64,000 bases of DNA from Heterotrichella gracilis (Eukaryota; Sar; Xanthophyceae; Tribonematales; Xanthonemataceae), in contig JAULBX010004332.1 of assembly GCA_032358255.1 (NCBI GenBank), positions 62,001 to 126,000 of the forward strand, in the 5' to 3' direction. The translations under genes and the position numbers were made by a program. Below the pieces are notes generated by a model, which worked only from the letters and a program-made list of their open reading frames with translations, searched no databases and was not told the DNA's origin. Positions 26,005 through 36,300 of the stretch are shown here, piece after piece (the stretch's first letter is position 1; each line of letters starts with the position of its first letter).

Positions 26005-27976
26005 CTCCCTGTCATATGTAGTACAGCCACAAGGAAGGGTTCTCAATTGCTTGCTATGCGTAGTATCATCATGGTCATGAAAAAATTTTAAGACTGTGGT
26101 TTCAAGGAACCTTTTTTCTTTTGTGCTGCCCGAGGGCAATGAGTGACACTGGCAACTTGCCTGGCATGCTGTGGCAACTTGAACTTCAATTGGACTGTAA
26201 AGTTTGAAACTCGCGGCTTGGGCATGCCATGGTGCTATTATTGCTCCACGTGCCCAATCTGATAAGACTGGCATGGGCATTGCAGTGTGCACGATGATAT
26301 GCCGCGTTATGCACGCATTTGGCGTTCAACAGTATTTTCTTTTCTTTCCTAGAGCTAAAACTTTCTGTTTCGGTGAACAGAGTTCTCTCCACACAGAGTA
26401 TGGTGATCATTCATGAGTCATGATGAATTGTGGTGTAGACGTCTCACACGTATCAAATTGCCTGGCCGGCCCGGCAAAAGGGGGGGGGGCCCTCCAAAAG
26501 TTTTAGGTACTTCCTCCGAGGTCATTAGTGGCACATGCAGGCTGGCCAGCATTTTCCAGCTATCAGCTGTATGCGCACAGTGACTGCATAAAGGTGAACT
26601 TCACACATTCTGTTGTGGCCTGTTGGAGCAGTCTGACAGGCTCTTGAGTCACTCAAGCAAGTTGCTCAGCAGTAGTGATTGCACTTGTCAATACAGGTTA
26701 CAGGCTGCAGCCTCAAAGAGATCTGACGAGGATAATTGCGCAAATTGTAGTACAAAATTGCAATCATTGAATGACTTATTGTTCAGTGTACCGACGAGTG
26801 CTGCACTATGTCTACACAACATAACAGATCAATAAGGCAGGATCTATAGAGAAAGAAAAAAAAGGCTGGCTTTGCTGCATAAGAGACTGCCACTAAGGCT
26901 CAGCCAGCGCTAATTCCACCATCACGCTACGCCACAAATCCCAAGCCCTTCCCCCCCAAATGCTCCCTGCCATCGCCACCTCCCCAGAACCTCGTCCCAC
27001 CTTCACCTCCATCACCATCACACAGCACCAGCAGCCAGCCAAAGGCATGCCGGTACCTGTCACTACCATAGCTAGCCCAAAACAGGCTAATAAAGTGCAC
27101 ATTGGACAACAAAGTGCATGCCTCACAACCAATTTTTTTGTCGTTTTTTGGAAAGATGTGTTTGCCTGCTTGCAACAGCGGTCAAGCAGGGCGCAGCACA
27201 GGGCCAAGCCTGCCGGGGAAATGTCGTTCAAAGCATGGTGCTGCGTCAGGGCCTGCTCGAAAAGGATGGGTACTTTCACACGTGAGTGAGCAGCCCTGAT
27301 AGAAAAGGAAACCGTACCCAAAAACACACCATGGATGAACCTTGATTAGGTGCAAACAGCTGGTAGCCAGAAAATGGATGCTACCAACCAGAGAATAGGG
27401 TTGGTGTGACAGAACCTGCGCACGGATGGTGCCCAGGCCTGTATGCCGCGGTGCAGCTGAGGGCTCATATGTGTGTGGTGGCTCGGGGAGGCGGTGCGGT
27501 GCTCCAAACGCACCTCCCCCCCTTGCCTCCCTGTGTTGTTTCGGCTCGAGAAACTCATGTCTTGTGCCAGCGGGGCGATCAAACCCACTGGCACTGTGCG
27601 CTGTGCTAAACCCTAGGGTTTGCCAGCTGTGGCAGGAACGGGATGTGTTCATTCATAGTGCTAAAATTGCCATCTGCCTGTTGTTGGGCAGCTGCCCCAT
27701 GCTACCCACCCTCCAATACACCCCATACACCCTCAAAAAACCCTAACCAAAGCTACTGAGAGCCAAGTTCTGCGCTGGCCTGACTGCATGCCAAATAGTG
27801 TCCATTGTCAAGCTCCCAAATTCAGATACCCCCTTGCTTGTGCTGGCCCCACAGCCCCCCTCGCCCACTCCCACCCCCGTCATTGCCTCACTGCTGGATA
27901 AATGCCATTCACTGCTCATGCTGCGGCCTGGCAAGCTGGATGGCCCTTCCCATGGTTGCGCCGCCTGGCCTGCACC
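26005..27976. other. Convergent intergenic region
   Basis: About 2 kb between the stops of GT90 copy B (plus) and the SAMDC-ODC gene (minus). It should hold two 3' UTRs; a TGTAA lies near 26195 on the plus strand. A G-run of ten occurs at about 26480. Open frames of up to about 150 codons (for example minus 27652-27182) show no family signature. Confidence 0.4.
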
Positions 27977-30900
27977 CTACTTGTGCGAGTAGACGTAGAA
28001 GGTGTTGACATCCACTGCATTAATCCCGTTGAAGTTGGTGGCGCCCACGCGGCCATAGGCGCCCATGCGCGGGAAGGCCAGCCAGTCCCCATTGTCCAGC
28101 TCCGGCAGGGGGTAGTCCCTGAGGACGGTGTCCAGGCCATCGCATGTGGGGCCAAACACGGTGGAGGGCAGCAGCGGGCCGGCGCGCTCTGCCCCAGTGA
28201 GCATGGGGCGTGCGGCCAGTGTGGCGTGGTCGTACAGCACGCAGTTCATGGAGCCGTACAGGCCGTCTGCAAAGGGAAATGGGAGGGTTTAGAGGAGGGT
28301 TCAGGGGGGCGTGGATGGATGATGATCTCACTGTGTGTTGAAAGGTGCAGGTGAAGGCTGTTAAACAATGTGTCTGTTACTGCGCCATACAGCGCAATGC
28401 AGCACATGACACCCAGCCTGAGGTGTAAAATGGAATTGAACGAAGCCCCAAAGCAGGAGCAGCATGCGCACGACACATGGGACAGGAATTGCAGCCAGCA
28501 CCACAATATTAATCTGCACCCCACCTGTGATGTAGTAGTCCAGGATGCGCTTGCCCTCGCGGTCCACCTTGCGGTTGCCGAACACCTGGCAGTACAGGGT
28601 GGCGCAGGCCTCGGCAAAGTAGCGCCCAGGCTCGGCGATGATCTGCAGGGGGAGCGGCAGCACACAAGTCAGGTATGGGCAAGGGATCACCAAGCCGGCG
28701 GCATGCACTGTGCTGCACAACATTAGCACCCCCATCCCCCCCTACTTGAGTGCGAGCCAATGCTGGGGCGGGCAGGGCGCCATATTATTTTCCAATTTCA
28801 TCACAGCTGGGCCGCTCTAACCAACCCTGCTACTGCACATGCCCAGCTGCCACACTCAACCTACACCATGCCAATGCACCACTTCCCACCAGCAGTAATC
28901 CACCCCACACACACCATACCCCCACACACAGCCCCCCACCCACCTGCACGCCTGCCTCCTCAGGGAAGTACATATCCAGCGCGGCATTCACCGCAGCCGG
29001 CACGCCACCCAGGTCCACCTTGCCGCTGGGCCCAAACCTGCCCCCGCAGAACCCGCCCCCCAGGTCCAGCAGGCGCATGTCAAAGCCCATGCTGAGCCCC
29101 AGGTCAAAGGCCTGGCGCGCCAGCTGGATGGCCACCGAGAAGGCATTGGGGTTGGTGGCGCCCGAGCCCACGTGGAAAGAGACGCCCACCACGTTGATGC
29201 CCAGGCTGCGCGCGGTGAGGAGCAGGGCCAGCCAGGTGTCGGGCTCCGCGCCATACTTGTTGCCCAGCTGGCAGCGCGCGTCGGGGTCGTCGGCGCGGAT
29301 GCGCAGCACCGCCTGGGTGTCGGGGTGCCACTTGGACAGCTTCAGCAGCTCGCTCTCGGTGTCAAAGGTGGTAAGGGACACGCCGCGGCGCGCGGCGGCC
29401 TTAATGTCGCTCGGGCGCTTGCAGGCGTTGGCCAGGATGATGCGCGAGGTGGGAACCCCCAGGGACATGACCACATCCACCTCGGGGTCCGACGCGCAGT
29501 CAAAGCCCGCCCCGAGCGCCGCCAGCGTGGAGATGATGGCGCGGTCGGTGTTGCACTTGACCGCGTAGAAGGGGTGCACGCGGGGCATAGCCTCGCACCA
29601 GGCCTGGTACAGGCGAGTCACCACGCCCAGGTCGAGGACATAGAAGGTGTCGTCCAGTGCGCGCATCTTGACCATGGAGGCGGCGAAAGCGTCGGTGGTG
29701 GCCATGGCGCAATCGGGGACGGGCTGCACCGCCCAGGCGGACAGCAGGGCCAGGAAGCGCTCCTCTGTGTCTGCCTCCTGAGGAAGGGCCAGGATGGCGG
29801 CGTCGCCCAGTGGGGGGGTGGCGGGGCGGTCGGTGCCGGTGGACTCCTCGCCTGAGGGGGGGGGGAGCAGGGGCGGGGGTCAGGCAGGATAAGGATGTTG
29901 ATACTGGTGAATTGATGAGGTGTGGTGGTGCAAGCGAGCCAAAAGGATTGTTGATGAGACAATAAGCACTGTGATTGCAGCATAGCCTCAAATCAAACAG
30001 AGCTATCACTGCTGCAAAATATGCAGTAAAATGCTGGTAGACAAAATGCTGGTAAACAAAAATGCTCTATGTGAAGGCCATGCAAACCAAACGCACAGGC
30101 TACACCATAGCATGCTGCGCGTACCGTCAGACTCCGACATGAGCGCCCTGCTGGAGTAGAAGCTGGGCAGGTGCTTGAGGACGGAGCGGGGGCTGGGGGG
30201 CTGGGAGCCGGCCTTGGGCGCCTCCACGTGGGCGCAGGTCACGCAGGACCGGTTCTTCAGCAGCTGGGTGCACAGCCCGCTCACAGTGACGCCAGAGGCG
30301 GTCAAGTGAACCACGTCCAGGGCCCAGGATGGCGCCGCGGCGTCCGCTGACACGGTGATGCAGGTCTGGCCTGGGTGGAAGATCTCCATGGCCTGTGTGA
30401 TGGCGGCTGCCAGGTCCAGGCTGTTGGGGTCAAAGCCAAAGAACTCCACGCTGGCGTAGCTGAAGCCCGCCTCCGGGGTGATGTGGATGGTGATGTACGA
30501 GTCGCCGCGCATGCCGTTCATGGAGTAGCCGCAGGGGTCAAACACGTAGTCGTCGATGGCTGCGCCCGGGAGCAGGTTCATGATGCCGGTCTGCGCGGTC
30601 ACCTGGGCCGCGCTCACAAAGCCGGTGCCCCTGAAGAACTGCTGGGCCTTCTCGGGGTGCAGGTCCCGCATGCACAGCTCCAGGCCGTAGGTGCTGGCCC
30701 TGGTGCGGGGCCCAGCCTCCTCAGCCAGGAACACATGCCACTGGAGGCCTGTGTGGCTGTCACCCATCACATAGGCGGTGGGGCCGCCCCCCAGGTGCCC
30801 GAACAGGGGGGTCAGGAACTCCTTCTCGTCGTCAAAGTGGGTGTGAGGCGCAAGCTGCAGCAGGAGCACAAGCCAGTCAGATCACCCCTGAACATCGAAG

Positions 30901-31362
30901 CGTCGCCTGGCATGCGAGATGGACCAAAACTACAGCAGGGCACCGCAGGGTCGCACATTACGCGCAGTGGCCGTGAAAACCCCGCACCTGCTGCTCTGGG
31001 AAGAGGTAGGAAGCTCTGGAGAACTTGCAGTAGTTGGGGGCGCAGTCCAGCGACGCCGCCATCTCCAGGAGGCGTGGCACGCAGTTGAGCAGCTTGGTGG
31101 TGCCGCAGGTCTTGAGGATGAAGGTGGATGGGTAGACGAAGAGGGAGGACTCCGACAGCACGTATGCGTCAAAGTGGTCGTTGTGCCTGTCGGACACAAT
31201 GCAGCAGGCGGCAAGCTCCATGAGCTCATCGAGCTGCTGACGGCTGAGGGAGCGAAGCCCTTCGTGTGGAGCACAAGGGCCAAGCTGGAAGGTGATCTCG
31301 ATGCGCTTCTCGGAGCCTTCAAACACAGGGTTTGGGAAGACGGTGGGGCTGTTGCTGGCCAT
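27977..31362 (-). CDS. SAMDC-ODC: Bifunctional S-adenosylmethionine decarboxylase / ornithine decarboxylase
   Basis: Five exons (minus): 31362-30988, 30854-30125, 29851-28944, 28642-28525, 28266-27977; 806 aa, phases 0, 1, 0, 1 all agree. Residues 1-368 are a complete AdoMet[14 protein letters not shown] near the N-terminus, the self-cleavage site YVLSESSLF (Glu71-Ser72, Ser becoming pyruvoyl), KTCGTT with Cys86, PCGYSMNG and [18 protein letters not shown]. Residues 369-435 are a linker without stop. Residues 436-806 are a fold-III, PLP-dependent [18 protein letters not shown] with Lys467, SFHVGSGA with His595, [29 protein letters not shown] and FGPTCDGLD with the catalytic Cys753-Asp754. It makes putrescine from ornithine and decarboxylated AdoMet for spermidine synthase, in the cytosol. 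Alternative: two genes, with SAMDC reading into intron 2 to 30006 and ODC starting at the GCCATGGCC near 29705. The matching splice phases and the lack of promoter space favour fusion. A uORF precedes it. Confidence 0.85.
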
Positions 31363-31700: not shown

Positions 31701-33396
31701 TGGTGACCACGTATTCCGCCAGCTTTGCAAACCACGGGGCAACGGGCGGAGTGTCACGCGCTTCGAATGGAAGCGTGTTGGTTGGCTGTTGGACTCGACT
31801 CTGGAGAGAAGAACCAATGCTGGAAGGAGATTGTGGGCAAGCAAGCAGTGGCAGTTGAAAGCCTTTTCAAAGGCAGACGATGCGGGGTGGGCAGCAAAAG
31901 GAATTGTGAACCGCGAAACGTGAATGCGTGTCAGTGGGCTTCCTTGGAAGTATATCTGTGGAAGCGAAGCTGTGGGAAGCTTTTGGTGCTCTGAGGATTG
32001 CGGCGGGGACTCCCCCGTTCGCGAGATTCCACTGCCTCCCTTCCTCCCGCATGCATTGGTCTGCAAGTCTGACATGGATCAATCAAATGGCCTAGGGGCC
32101 CTTTAATTACCGTGGTGGTAGAACGCACCACACCTTTCTCAAAGGCGTCAGATGGCGCAGATTATCACGTACAACGGGCTCGCCAGACCTTCTCTTGACT
32201 TTAATCTGGAGGTTTGTCACTGCTGGTGTGTCCAGGCGGCCACTGGAAGGTAATCCAGCGCGTACCAGCACACAAACTGGTACCCTCTCTTTAGACACCA
32301 CCAAGGTCCCTGCGCAGGCCTCACCCCAACGTCTGCTCAGAGACACGACAATAGGAGCCATGGCAGCTCTTGAGGTGTGGCCACTGCCTTTTCCCTGCAC
32401 AGTACCTCCTGCTGGCGCTCCTGCTGCTGTGTACCTGTTGAGAACCCTCCACACGCTCCCTGAGCAGGAAAACCCCCACCCCACCAGATTTCCGCACCCA
32501 CGCAACGCCTGAAGGTGTTTTACAGCGTGGATAGCCTTTCTGTGCCCCTATGTCGCCCATCCCAGGCCATATAGCGTCGTTTAGGGCCCATTTGTCCACC
32601 TTTTTGGGCCAACCTCTGTTAACAACGTTGCAGGCAACTGGCGCTGGAGCTTGGTGGTAGGAGGTCTCAGGGCTTGCACAGCTGCTTTGCGTCTCCCTGG
32701 TTGCAGCACCAGAGGACAGGTTCGTTAAACCAGACTAGAGCAGCGCCGTCCTCCCTGCAGAGTGTCGCAGTTTGTGGGGATCAGAGGGAAATTGGCGTTG
32801 CCACGCTGGCATTTCAGGGGGGCTGCGTAACCCCCAACGTTGCCCACACTCAAGCTGCATCAGGGCCCCACAGGCTGCTCTGTTTCGCAACCAGGAGCTA
32901 TGAAACTTGCTATTTTTGGCTGATTTTCGGCAGTTTGCAGTGACTAACAAGAACCTTGTGCCATGCTTGCTGGCGCCCAGCAGGACCCCGTGCAGCGTGC
33001 TCTTTCGAGCCAGTTGCCTGCTGGGATCACTCGATAAGGTCGTACTGTAGCTCCTGTGTGCAACAGGGCCGCTACGTTGGGTTGCAAGTGGGTGAAAAGA
33101 TCCTTTCTAGAGGGGACCCGTGCCACAACCAGTCAGTGAGGTGCCCACCCCCCAGTACCTGCCAGATCCTCCTCAGCAGGCACCCATCCAACCCCACGAC
33201 ACGAGGTGAGCGTCCACGTTTGGCTTGTTTAACATTTTCAGCCATGCATGCGCCTCCCCAGCCCATCATCTTGCTTGCCAAATGGCACTTCTTGCCTGGA
33301 TGCACCCATTCATGCTGGGGACATCAGGCTCATACCCTCATCTATCCTGCAGGAGCATCCCTGTGGGACCACACACACACCATTGCCCCATACCTG
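31701..33396. promoter_or_regulatory. Divergent intergenic region of SAMDC-ODC and the JmjC gene
   Basis: It must hold the promoter and 5' leader of both genes. Near the right end, 33111-33205 looks like a Pro/Gln-rich exon ending in a good donor (ACGAG|GTGAGC at 33206). Read in the frame that splices correctly to 33353 it would extend the JmjC protein upstream. The reading frame that looks most like coding (VPQPVSEVPTPQ) does not match phase, so it may be untranslated. Confidence 0.4.
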
Positions 33397-36300
33397 ATGG
33401 TGCCCCAAGAGGGGCAGGCCCAGTGTGGGCCGGGCACCGCAACTGTGGCCATTCCGGTAGAGGTGGCCCCCGCGCAGGCCACCATCGCACAGCAGCAGGC
33501 GCAGGGGCTTTTCCTGACGACGCCACCAATCATGCCACCCGTACAAAGCCTGAGTGTGCTACCGGTACGTGATGCCCATCCCCATCACCTGGCACGTGGT
33601 TGTGTATGCATGCATGCATCCATGGTGTCTATGTGTGAAGCAGCACCTGCCCTCTGTCACCCTCTGCTGCATGAAAGCAAAGGACGAAATACTTGCATCC
33701 TTCAAGCCATTATAACCCATACCGACTGGGGTAGCCTTTGCACTTTGCCGCTTGCTCACCCACCCATCCCCCTCCCCCCTTCGCAGCAGCAGCCCTGTGG
33801 AGCCGCAGGCCAAATACCTACAACCACACCAGCCGCAGCAACAGCAACAGCAACAGCCACACAGTCAGCTTGCGCCACCAGTGCCTTGGCGCAGGTTGCC
33901 GCTGCCCTGAAGCAACAGCAGCTGGCCAACCTGACCGCTGCCCACGCGCAGCCCGGGCAGCACCAGAACACCATGTTTGCGCTGGTGCTGCACGACAGCA
34001 ACGGCCAGGCACGCATGGTGATGCCGGCGGGGCAGGGCGGGCAGCAGGGCGGGGGTAAGCTCACCGCCTCCTCAATGTTCTCGCTCACACCCGCCCTCGC
34101 CCAGGCGATACTGCAGCAACAGCACCTGCTGGCAGCGGCAAAGGCAAGGAACGACGCCAAGGCAGGGGTGGCAGTGACGGTGAACGGCAGCGGCGATAAG
34201 TCCCAAAGCAGCGTCATCCCAGCCAGCATCCAGGCCGCGGTAGAGGCCGCCGGCATCCCTGCGGACGTGCTTGCCGCCGCCATGCAGCCCGATGCACCCA
34301 CACGGCGCACGCGGCAGCAGAGCAAGGCAGTGGACCCACCCCCACGCACCGCAGCCAGGAACCAGGCGCCAGGCACAGGCGCAGCCCCACCCATCAGCCT
34401 CGTGGCGCAAGCAGCCAGGGCCAAGGCAGCCAAGCTGGCGGAGGTCTCCCCGGCACCTGCTGTAGCCACCCCAGCTGCAGAGCCCAAGGGGGTGAAGCGC
34501 AAGGAGGAGGAGGGGAGGGAGGGCCGCAGGGCCCCGTCCGCGGAGCCGACGACCTCCAAGGGGCTGAAGAGCATCAAAGTGGCAGGGGGAAGGCATGAGA
34601 AGGCAGGGAGTGGGGCGTCCACCCCCCGCAGCCAGGACACAACCCAGCGCCCCCGCCCCGCAGTGGCCCACCGCGTGGTGAAGCCAGACCGCCTGTATGG
34701 TTGCAAGGCCTGCGGGTTCAGGCAGGTGGGTGGCGCAGCTTGAGCAGGGGGGTAGGGGGCGGCTCCTGGGGTTCAGGCTACAATGAGGGTGTACCTCTTA
34801 TGTGTCAGGCACGAGGAGGCTGAGTGCGAGCAAATTGTTGCTGCAAAGAATAATCATACATGCACAGACTGCATCGCTCGGCCCTGACAAACCCCTATAC
34901 CATGTTTGGTATGGATTAGCCATATACCCGCATGTGTTGTCCTCTAGGGTTACGCGGCAGCTACTTTTGTCATACGCAATACTCAACATCGTATGGGTAT
35001 TATAGATCGCGCTTTACATCATAGTATCATTGTGTCTTGTATGCATATGGGCATGGATCACACAGGAGGCACCATGTGGCTGCACTTTGCTTCATCAACA
35101 ATGATTGTGTCATGTTCGTATCCCTGCGTCGCCCACGGCTGCCCACTCATCCGCAACAATCACCCATCTTCTGTGGCCCCCTAACCCGTCCCCCTGCCTG
35201 CAGCCTGGCTGCCCCCACTGCCAGCACCGGCCTGTGTGGGAACGCCCCAGCCACCTGCGCTGGCGCCCGCAGCTTGGCCGACCGCAGGAGGACATCCCCG
35301 AGGCCCCCACCTATTACCCCACCCTTGAGGAGTTTGCTGACCCACTAGCATACATCAACAAGATACGACCGGAGGCAGAGAGGTGCGTGCACTTGCAATG
35401 GGGGTGACCATATGGAAGTGGTTTGGATGGGATAGGGGTGGGTACAGTGGCTGGCTGAGCAAACACTTTGACTATGCAAATGCTGGTGCATGCATGCTGT
35501 TTGCCTGGCAAGGTGTGAGTAGGGTGGAGGGGCCAGGGAAGGCTGGCAGTGGTTGAGCCTTCAAGTGCTGCATGGGCACAGGGACCAGCCTTGAGCATGG
35601 ACTGCGCATCATGGCAGGGGTGCAGGAGGCAGGCCAGCACCCCTGCTTCCCGCCTCTGTACACTAATATACCCTGTTGCTGGTGCCAACATACCTCCAAA
35701 TACTTGGACGAACTGCTCCTTGATCAGTTGAACAGCATCAAGGCATGAAACTAGGAAAGCAGCTGTTGCCATGCACGCGCTGATCCCTCACCACCCCGCT
35801 TCCTCCCCTCAGGTCTGGCATCTGTGCCATCGTGCCCCCTGCCGGTTGGGACCCCCCCTTTGCGCTAGACAAGGGGACCAATGGTCAGGACGCAGCCAGC
35901 TTCCAGTTCCTCATACGCAAGCAGCTCACCAGCTCCCTGTGCATGCGCCCGCCCAACCCACTACCAGAGGGGGAGGAGGGAGCAGCGCCTGGGGGCGGCT
36001 GCGAGTTCAAGTACGGGCGCAACAAAGGCGGCCCGGGCGAGGCCGCGACAGTGAGCGATGGAGGAACGTTGTCACGGGAGTTTGGCTACGATACAATGGT
36101 GCGTTGAACTCTGAACTGCTAAACAAGAGAGTGTGGTGTCGTCGCTGCATACCTTGCTGGCAGCATCGAATGCTTGAATTGGTAGTGCTTGTGTCCACCA
36201 AATTGGAATTATTATATTGCATGACGTGGGGCCGCGTGGGTTGTGATAGCAATGCGAATCAACAGGATTGCATGGCCCTGGGGAATTGCAACGCACCCAC

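Follow-up and report, generated by a model that had tools for sequence, protein, structure and literature searches.

Spermidine is made from two inputs, putrescine and decarboxylated AdoMet, which in most organisms are kept in balance by separate controls. In Plasmodium, AdoMet decarboxylase (AdoMetDC, or SAMDC) comes first and ornithine decarboxylase (ODC) second in a far longer protein that carries parasite inserts and a hinge. An AdoMetDC-ODC fusion was also reportedly described by Green et al. in 2011 (Mol Microbiol) in the green alga Micromonas, a mamiellophyte. The Plasmodium AdoMetDC/ODC is bifunctional and encoded in one reading frame, according to the available part of one account (PMC5004602), and a single Micromonas protein, XP_003057072.1, has been entered under both ODC and SAMDC (PMC6356823, Table 2). 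In plants, a leader peptide encoded by a small upstream open reading frame (uORF) represses translation of AdoMetDC at high polyamine levels, as stated in the accessible portions of two papers (PMC7503886, PMC2075485); within the same portions, this leader is also recorded from Ulva and Chlamydomonas (PMC2075485), and a dual circuit is described in which a tiny uORF overlaps the small uORF by one base (PMC7503886).

Here we describe an AdoMetDC-ODC gene on the minus strand, at positions 31362-27977 of the window (the whole stretch of 64,000 nucleotides that was analyzed). We are highly confident that this gene encodes one bifunctional AdoMetDC-ODC precursor, which would cleave itself and is probably controlled by a leader; the fusion itself was most likely already present in the ancestor of green plants. 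As in Micromonas, both enzymes are contained in one protein of a green alga, but the ODC half described here groups with fusions from trebouxiophytes. The domain order is shared with the Plasmodium protein, which is long and carries inserts, whereas the protein encoded here has 806 amino acids and a short hinge (~109 residues).

Gene model and leader peptide

When exons were joined and translated, five coding exons connected in phase to give a coding sequence of 2421 nt with one stop and 806 codons, interrupted by four introns (133, 273, 301, and 258 nt) that all have GT...AG ends. The exon coordinates and phase in the initial annotation were therefore correct. Its gene span, 27977..31362, holds for the coding exons but overlooked a uORF, and the recognized features extend to 31700, as follows.

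31700-31551, minus strand: first part of the uORF, conserved AdoMetDC leader peptide
31550-31470, minus strand: intron of the uORF, GTAAGT...CAG, 81 nt
31469-31449, minus strand: last codons of the uORF, CVKGAS and stop
31362-30988, minus strand: coding exon 1, with start codon, AdoMetDC beta chain, cleavage site Glu71/Ser72, and KTCGTT
31149-31147, minus strand: Ser72 codon, within coding exon 1
30854-30125, minus strand: coding exon 2, remainder of AdoMetDC (Ser236, His249, Glu253) and start of the hinge
30233-29634, minus strand: hinge, approximately residues 333-441 (~109 residues), split by intron 2 (30124-29852)
29851-28944, minus strand: coding exon 3, end of the hinge and ODC barrel (PLP Lys467, His595, GGG 633-635)
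29558-29556, minus strand: PLP Lys467 codon, within coding exon 3
28642-28525, minus strand: coding exon 4, ODC (EPGRYF, Glu675, Arg678)
28266-27977, minus strand: coding exon 5, C-terminal part of ODC (Asp723, Cys752, Asp753, Tyr781) and stop codon

A Pfam scan of the 806-residue protein placed PF01536 (AdoMetDC) at residues 13-306 (E 3e-91) and the ODC families PF02784 and PF00278 at residues 445-681 (E 2.3e-71) and 442-779 (E 3.7e-19), respectively. The PF01536 match ended at profile position 308 of 343, leaving the last 35 AdoMetDC profile positions unmatched. By sequence, the nearest solved structures were potato and human AdoMetDC for the first half and mammalian ODC for the second. The gene model and these domains bear out the original proposal of one gene in which AdoMetDC precedes ODC. 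A fusion produced by chance or as an artefact of exon joining is ruled out by the Pfam scores and by the unbroken frame of a close homolog, which we discuss below; the gene is real, and it is nearly certain that it is an AdoMetDC-ODC fusion.

An AlphaFold model of a relative (P0011), built from 52 aligned database proteins (42 fused, 10 stand-alone), predicted two folded parts (mean pLDDT 89.8, pTM 0.73) and a single internal stretch with pLDDT below 50, residues 339-366, which would correspond to a disordered hinge between them. In a structure search with this model, all 50 matches listed were ODC or arginine decarboxylase chains and thus concerned the ODC half only, which in the model resembled solved ODCs and the arginine decarboxylase of a Chlorella virus (2nv9, 2nva).

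The spliced uORF comprises 56 codons (MEQKPSMPSSCKSSGSSNSSTRVFEPALSLLVEDVRPWGSTVKWSAAFADCVKGAS), and its peptide matched PF08132, the AdoMetDC leader family, with 29.7 bits (cut-off 25, E 6e-7). When the whole genome was searched with PF08132 at E values up to 10, the uORF locus gave the single match, which without splicing scored 21.4 bits and fell below the cut-off. Predicted proteins from Chlorokybus (P0070, a fusion) and lupin (P0313) begin with the leader peptide and, as judged by eye, depart from it after AAYAD or AAYSN, at the position of the uORF intron. Stand-alone plant AdoMetDCs that have a PF08132 uORF (group 3 in the available part of PMC2075485) belong to class 2, as does the AdoMetDC here, and their small uORF peptides resemble this leader in having an EDVRP...SAA motif and a matching intron position. 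The plant leader precedes AdoMetDC alone, however, whereas the leader here precedes an AdoMetDC-ODC fusion and would therefore control two enzymes. A further difference is that the tiny uORF overlapping the leader frame by one base is absent, there being no ATG between 32052 and 31700, and the leader switch, if it works, must thus differ in its first step. By analogy with plants, a polyamine-sensing leader probably controls translation of both enzymes. A leader peptide in front of an AdoMetDC-ODC fusion seems to be new.

None of 10 flanking open reading frames that were scanned had a Pfam match. One of the frames without a match, of 599 codons (32944-34740, plus strand), adjoins the fusion gene.

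Distribution and history of the fusion

The initial annotation treated this fusion as an exception, stating that plants and the algae familiar to it keep two separate genes. This was wrong, as the same fusion is widespread in both green divisions, with examples among chlorophytes and streptophyte algae as well as in a liverwort and in ferns. The search for further fusions that had been suggested was productive, yielding at least 120 homologs with both halves. In BLASTP, both halves were matched by 120 of the best 120 of 838 homologs, a tally of the top-scoring matches that gives no measure of how common green plants without the fusion are. Within these best 120 of 838, every named fused homolog is green, and all three Pfam domains were present in all but two proteins, P0001 (SAMDC end only) and P0062. 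AdoMetDC came first in 126 of the 126 two-half proteins collected, 110 of which contain long spans of both halves.

Chlorophyte fusions were found in Trebouxia, Micractinium, Coccomyxa, Myrmecia, Elliptochloris, Apatococcus, Auxenochlorella, Bryopsis, Tetraselmis, Nephroselmis, and Cymbomonas, and streptophyte fusions in Mesostigma, Chlorokybus, Mesotaenium, the liverwort Calypogeia, and the ferns Adiantum and Ceratopteris; some of these genus names are our reading of JGI gene prefixes. Stand-alone forms of both enzymes occur in Chlorophyceae, lycophytes, and seed plants, stand-alone ODCs in a moss and some trebouxiophytes, and stand-alone SAMDCs in ferns that also have the fusion, although some of the short stand-alone models may be incomplete gene predictions. 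Four green fusions or ODCs (P0004, P0012, P0060, P0208) are named 'Mitochondrial 2-oxoadipate and 2-oxoglutarate transporter' in their public source, a misnaming that we presume stems from a yeast carrier also called ODC1. In the open-licence literature, no title or abstract opening reported an AdoMetDC-ODC fusion across green plants. The gene described here belongs to a known but little-noticed kind.

We calculated a tree for each half, using mostly proteins that carry names. The ODC tree contained 28 of the 126 fused proteins, 22 of 107 ODC-only proteins, the gene described here, and two animal ODCs; the SAMDC tree contained 28 of the 126 fused proteins, 24 of 120 SAMDC-only proteins, the same gene, and human AdoMetDC. 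In the ODC tree, fused proteins were spread across both green divisions and surrounded the ODC half described here, which grouped with trebouxiophyte fusions (97/79; 74/76 in a tree with human ODC) and whose own placement had moderate support (98/77; 72/74 with human ODC). Stand-alone ODCs nested in several places, as a chlorophyte group (88/75), in Klebsormidium, and as a Mesostigma paralog, and those of a moss, lycophytes, and an angiosperm formed a stand-alone group (98/97). Fern and liverwort fusions made up one clade with Mesotaenium (100/97). Substitution of human ODC for a long nematode branch left this pattern unchanged, with a weak root (52/7). AU tests of two groupings chosen after the first ODC tree was known rejected both the grouping of all fused ODC halves into one clade (p 2.4e-34) and that of all stand-alone green ODCs (p 4.1e-5).

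The SAMDC tree had one very long outgroup branch and a poorly resolved chlorophyte part; with this resolution, the five proteins nearest by path to the SAMDC half described here were stand-alone SAMDCs. Fern fusions were located among stand-alone SAMDCs of ferns and seed plants in this tree. Over 111 fused proteins, the distances of the two halves agreed (r 0.73, a value reached in 0 of 999 shuffles), the pattern that joint inheritance of the two halves would produce.

Since fused enzymes enclose stand-alone green ones in the trees of the two halves, green plants probably had the fusion ancestrally and split it repeatedly, with the caveat that the roots are weak; a single ancestral fusion followed by repeated splits fits these sequences best. 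A more detailed scenario is evenly poised in our judgment. It holds that the ancestor of green plants had one AdoMetDC-ODC protein under a single polyamine-sensing leader, that the separate genes of Chlorophyceae, mosses, lycophytes, and seed plants reflect repeated fission, and that seed plants kept the leader on AdoMetDC alone, with ODC escaping its control.

Several green lineages might instead have started from separate genes and fused them independently in the same order, which we regard as unlikely but worth serious consideration. Parsimony required 4-5 changes on the ODC tree and 8 on the SAMDC tree, and room for repeated fusion is left because such counts cannot separate gain from loss; the weak roots and the position of fern fusions among stand-alone fern and seed-plant SAMDCs point the same way. 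Against repeated fusion, the fused proteins include those of Mesostigma, Chlorokybus, Cymbomonas, and Nephroselmis, all early-branching members of the two green divisions, and the ODC tree unites the fern and liverwort fusions with that of Mesotaenium. Somewhat less probable again is a single fusion, inherited or transferred, behind both the green and the apicomplexan proteins, an idea that draws on their common domain order. To look for a viral origin, viral contigs were scanned once with P0011, and no relative was found.

Predicted activity of the two halves and probable continuity of the transcript

For both halves, residues were compared with the human enzymes at looked-up positions (18 in AdoMetDC, 16 in ODC). 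The AdoMetDC half agreed at 15 of its 18 positions (human 7, 8, 11, 15, 67, 68, 80, 82, 113, 178, 223, 229, 243, 247, and 256), where Ser72 was counted as agreeing although the human chain used carries S68A, and it differed at human positions 111 (Lys113), 174 (Thr180), and 176 (Gly182). Ser72, Lys84, Cys86, Ser236, His249, and Glu253 are among the residues kept. The ODC half agreed at 16 of 16 positions, with human Lys69, His197, Glu274, Arg277, Asp332, Cys360, and Asp361 corresponding to residues 467, 595, 675, 678, 723, 752, and 753. The statement in the initial annotation that the catalytic residues are kept in both halves is thus supported, at the level of sequence, for the main ones. Across fused relatives, human-numbered Ser68, Lys80, Cys82, and His243 of AdoMetDC were present in 111 of 111 aligned proteins, Lys69 and His197 of ODC in 126 of 126, and Asp361 in 125 of 126.

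Gly182, encoded in exon 2, is unusual. It occupies a putrescine-site position (human 176) that 106 of 111 fused relatives fill with Thr (85) or Ser (21). Human Asp174, part of the putrescine site, is replaced by Val in potato AdoMetDC, and potato His294 is replaced by Ser in the AdoMetDC half here; both positions bear on a possible stimulation of this AdoMetDC by putrescine.

Like the ODC half, the Chlorella virus arginine decarboxylase and eukaryotic ODC are PLP enzymes of fold III. The chlorovirus enzyme provides a rule by which the residue at the place of human Asp332 separates ornithine from arginine use; the viral arginine decarboxylase has Glu at this position, whereas the ODC half has Asp, as in ODC, which favors ornithine rather than arginine as the substrate.

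A search of the assembly (68.5 Mb, 903 contigs) found no second AdoMetDC, leaving the fusion gene as the sole AdoMetDC locus found. A second ODC elsewhere was rejected, as the remaining PF02784 loci resemble genes for diaminopimelate or arginine decarboxylases. Contig C321 (locus L002) carries a lysA gene that scored above the cut-off; C331 (L003) carries an intronless, arginine-decarboxylase-like gene that fell below the cut-off in the profile scan, and C369 (L006) one that by eye is very similar, intronless, and also arginine-decarboxylase-like. The PF02784 loci on C548 and C2 have their coding sequence divided into exons; their best matches, to arginine decarboxylase and lysA, were below the cut-offs, as exon pieces would be expected to score. 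Judged from these searches, the fusion gene is probably the only source of decarboxylated AdoMet and the only ODC of this alga. Spermidine-synthase-like matches were found on other contigs (C899, C758, C221). A search with PF02100 (antizyme) gave no match, nor did its controls.

The exon-split arginine decarboxylase-like gene on C548 (L004/L007) may offer the alga a second route to putrescine. The intronless genes on C321, C331, and C369 have neighbors that look bacterial by eye (aspartokinase-, agmatinase-, and MreB-type frames), so that some contigs of the assembly are probably of bacterial origin, two of which come from closely related sources.

The unmatched end of the AdoMetDC profile and the three AdoMetDC positions unlike human raise the question of whether one half is dead or regulatory only. 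We find this improbable, as the residues for AdoMetDC self-cleavage and catalysis and all 16 ODC positions are kept and the genome search found no other AdoMetDC.

Slightly less credible still are two adjacent genes with separate transcripts, in which AdoMetDC would stop within intron 2 (~30006) and ODC would start at its own ATG (~29705). An ATG is indeed present near 29705, the frame of exon 2 continues to a stop in the intron, and other green organisms have stand-alone ODCs and AdoMetDCs. Three observations weigh against separate transcripts. First, the top match in the protein collection (P0001), a 529-residue open reading frame on a 1857-base contig with 81% identity, starts at residue 281 of the 806-residue protein, and so covers only the end of AdoMetDC, but continues through exon junctions 2, 3, and 4 without interruption; the hinge is part of this span and contains a stretch of 19 residues that is identical in the two proteins. 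The junction 30125/29851, which the initial annotation had singled out for testing, is thus crossed by the frame of this relative. Because introns of 273, 301, and 258 nt occupy the same region here, the intron-free contig, whose source type is unstated in the collection, points most simply to a transcript. Second, at least 15 of the best 120 of 838 homologs carry the names of transcript assemblies (8 MMETSP, 7 assembly-type from EukProt), and all are fused. Third, intron 2 contains neither TGTAA nor AATAAA. For the fusion gene as a whole, TGTAA is absent throughout 31362-27977, and the first one 3' of the stop codon lies only at 26702, more than 1.2 kb away, which, like the three AdoMetDC positions unlike human, the missing tiny uORF, the weak root of the ODC tree, and the path proximity of the SAMDC half to stand-alone SAMDCs, counts against our main reading.

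Least tenable is a separate origin of the fusion in this alga or among its closest relatives, as implied by the initial annotation with its statement that plants and familiar algae keep two genes. For all the moderate support for the ODC placement and the path proximity of the SAMDC half to stand-alone SAMDCs, the domains come in the same order in 126 of the 126 proteins that have both halves, the named ones among them representing both green divisions; moreover, fused proteins surround the ODC half, and the distances of the two halves agree.

Proposed mechanism and its meaning

AdoMetDC must cut itself, here at Glu71/Ser72, and the resulting chain split is visible in PDB chains. Because of this self-cleavage, the mature enzyme would consist of two chains rather than one intact polypeptide. 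We propose that the precursor cleaves at Glu71/Ser72 to yield a beta chain of 71 residues and an alpha-ODC chain, the first residue of which would become the pyruvoyl cofactor and the C-terminal half of which would be ODC. If the ODC parts pair as known ODCs do, each dimer would contain two AdoMetDC and two ODC sites and would feed decarboxylated AdoMet and putrescine to a separately encoded spermidine synthase. At high polyamine levels, ribosomes would stall on the leader frame, and both activities would fall together. The stand-alone ODC and AdoMetDC genes of Chlorophyceae and many land plants would have arisen by splitting of the fusion or by loss of one half. A fixed ratio of putrescine to decarboxylated AdoMet flux from one protein, as initially suggested, was not adopted as a mechanism.

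What makes this gene of wider interest is how far the fusion extends among green plants, together with a leader peptide that stands before both enzymes. With AdoMetDC and ODC fused behind a polyamine-sensing leader, a single feedback loop would be able to adjust the two inputs for spermidine at the same time. If the fusion is ancestral to green plants, then it is the familiar separate genes of plants that are derived, and the function of the fusion could readily be studied in ferns, liverworts, and algae.
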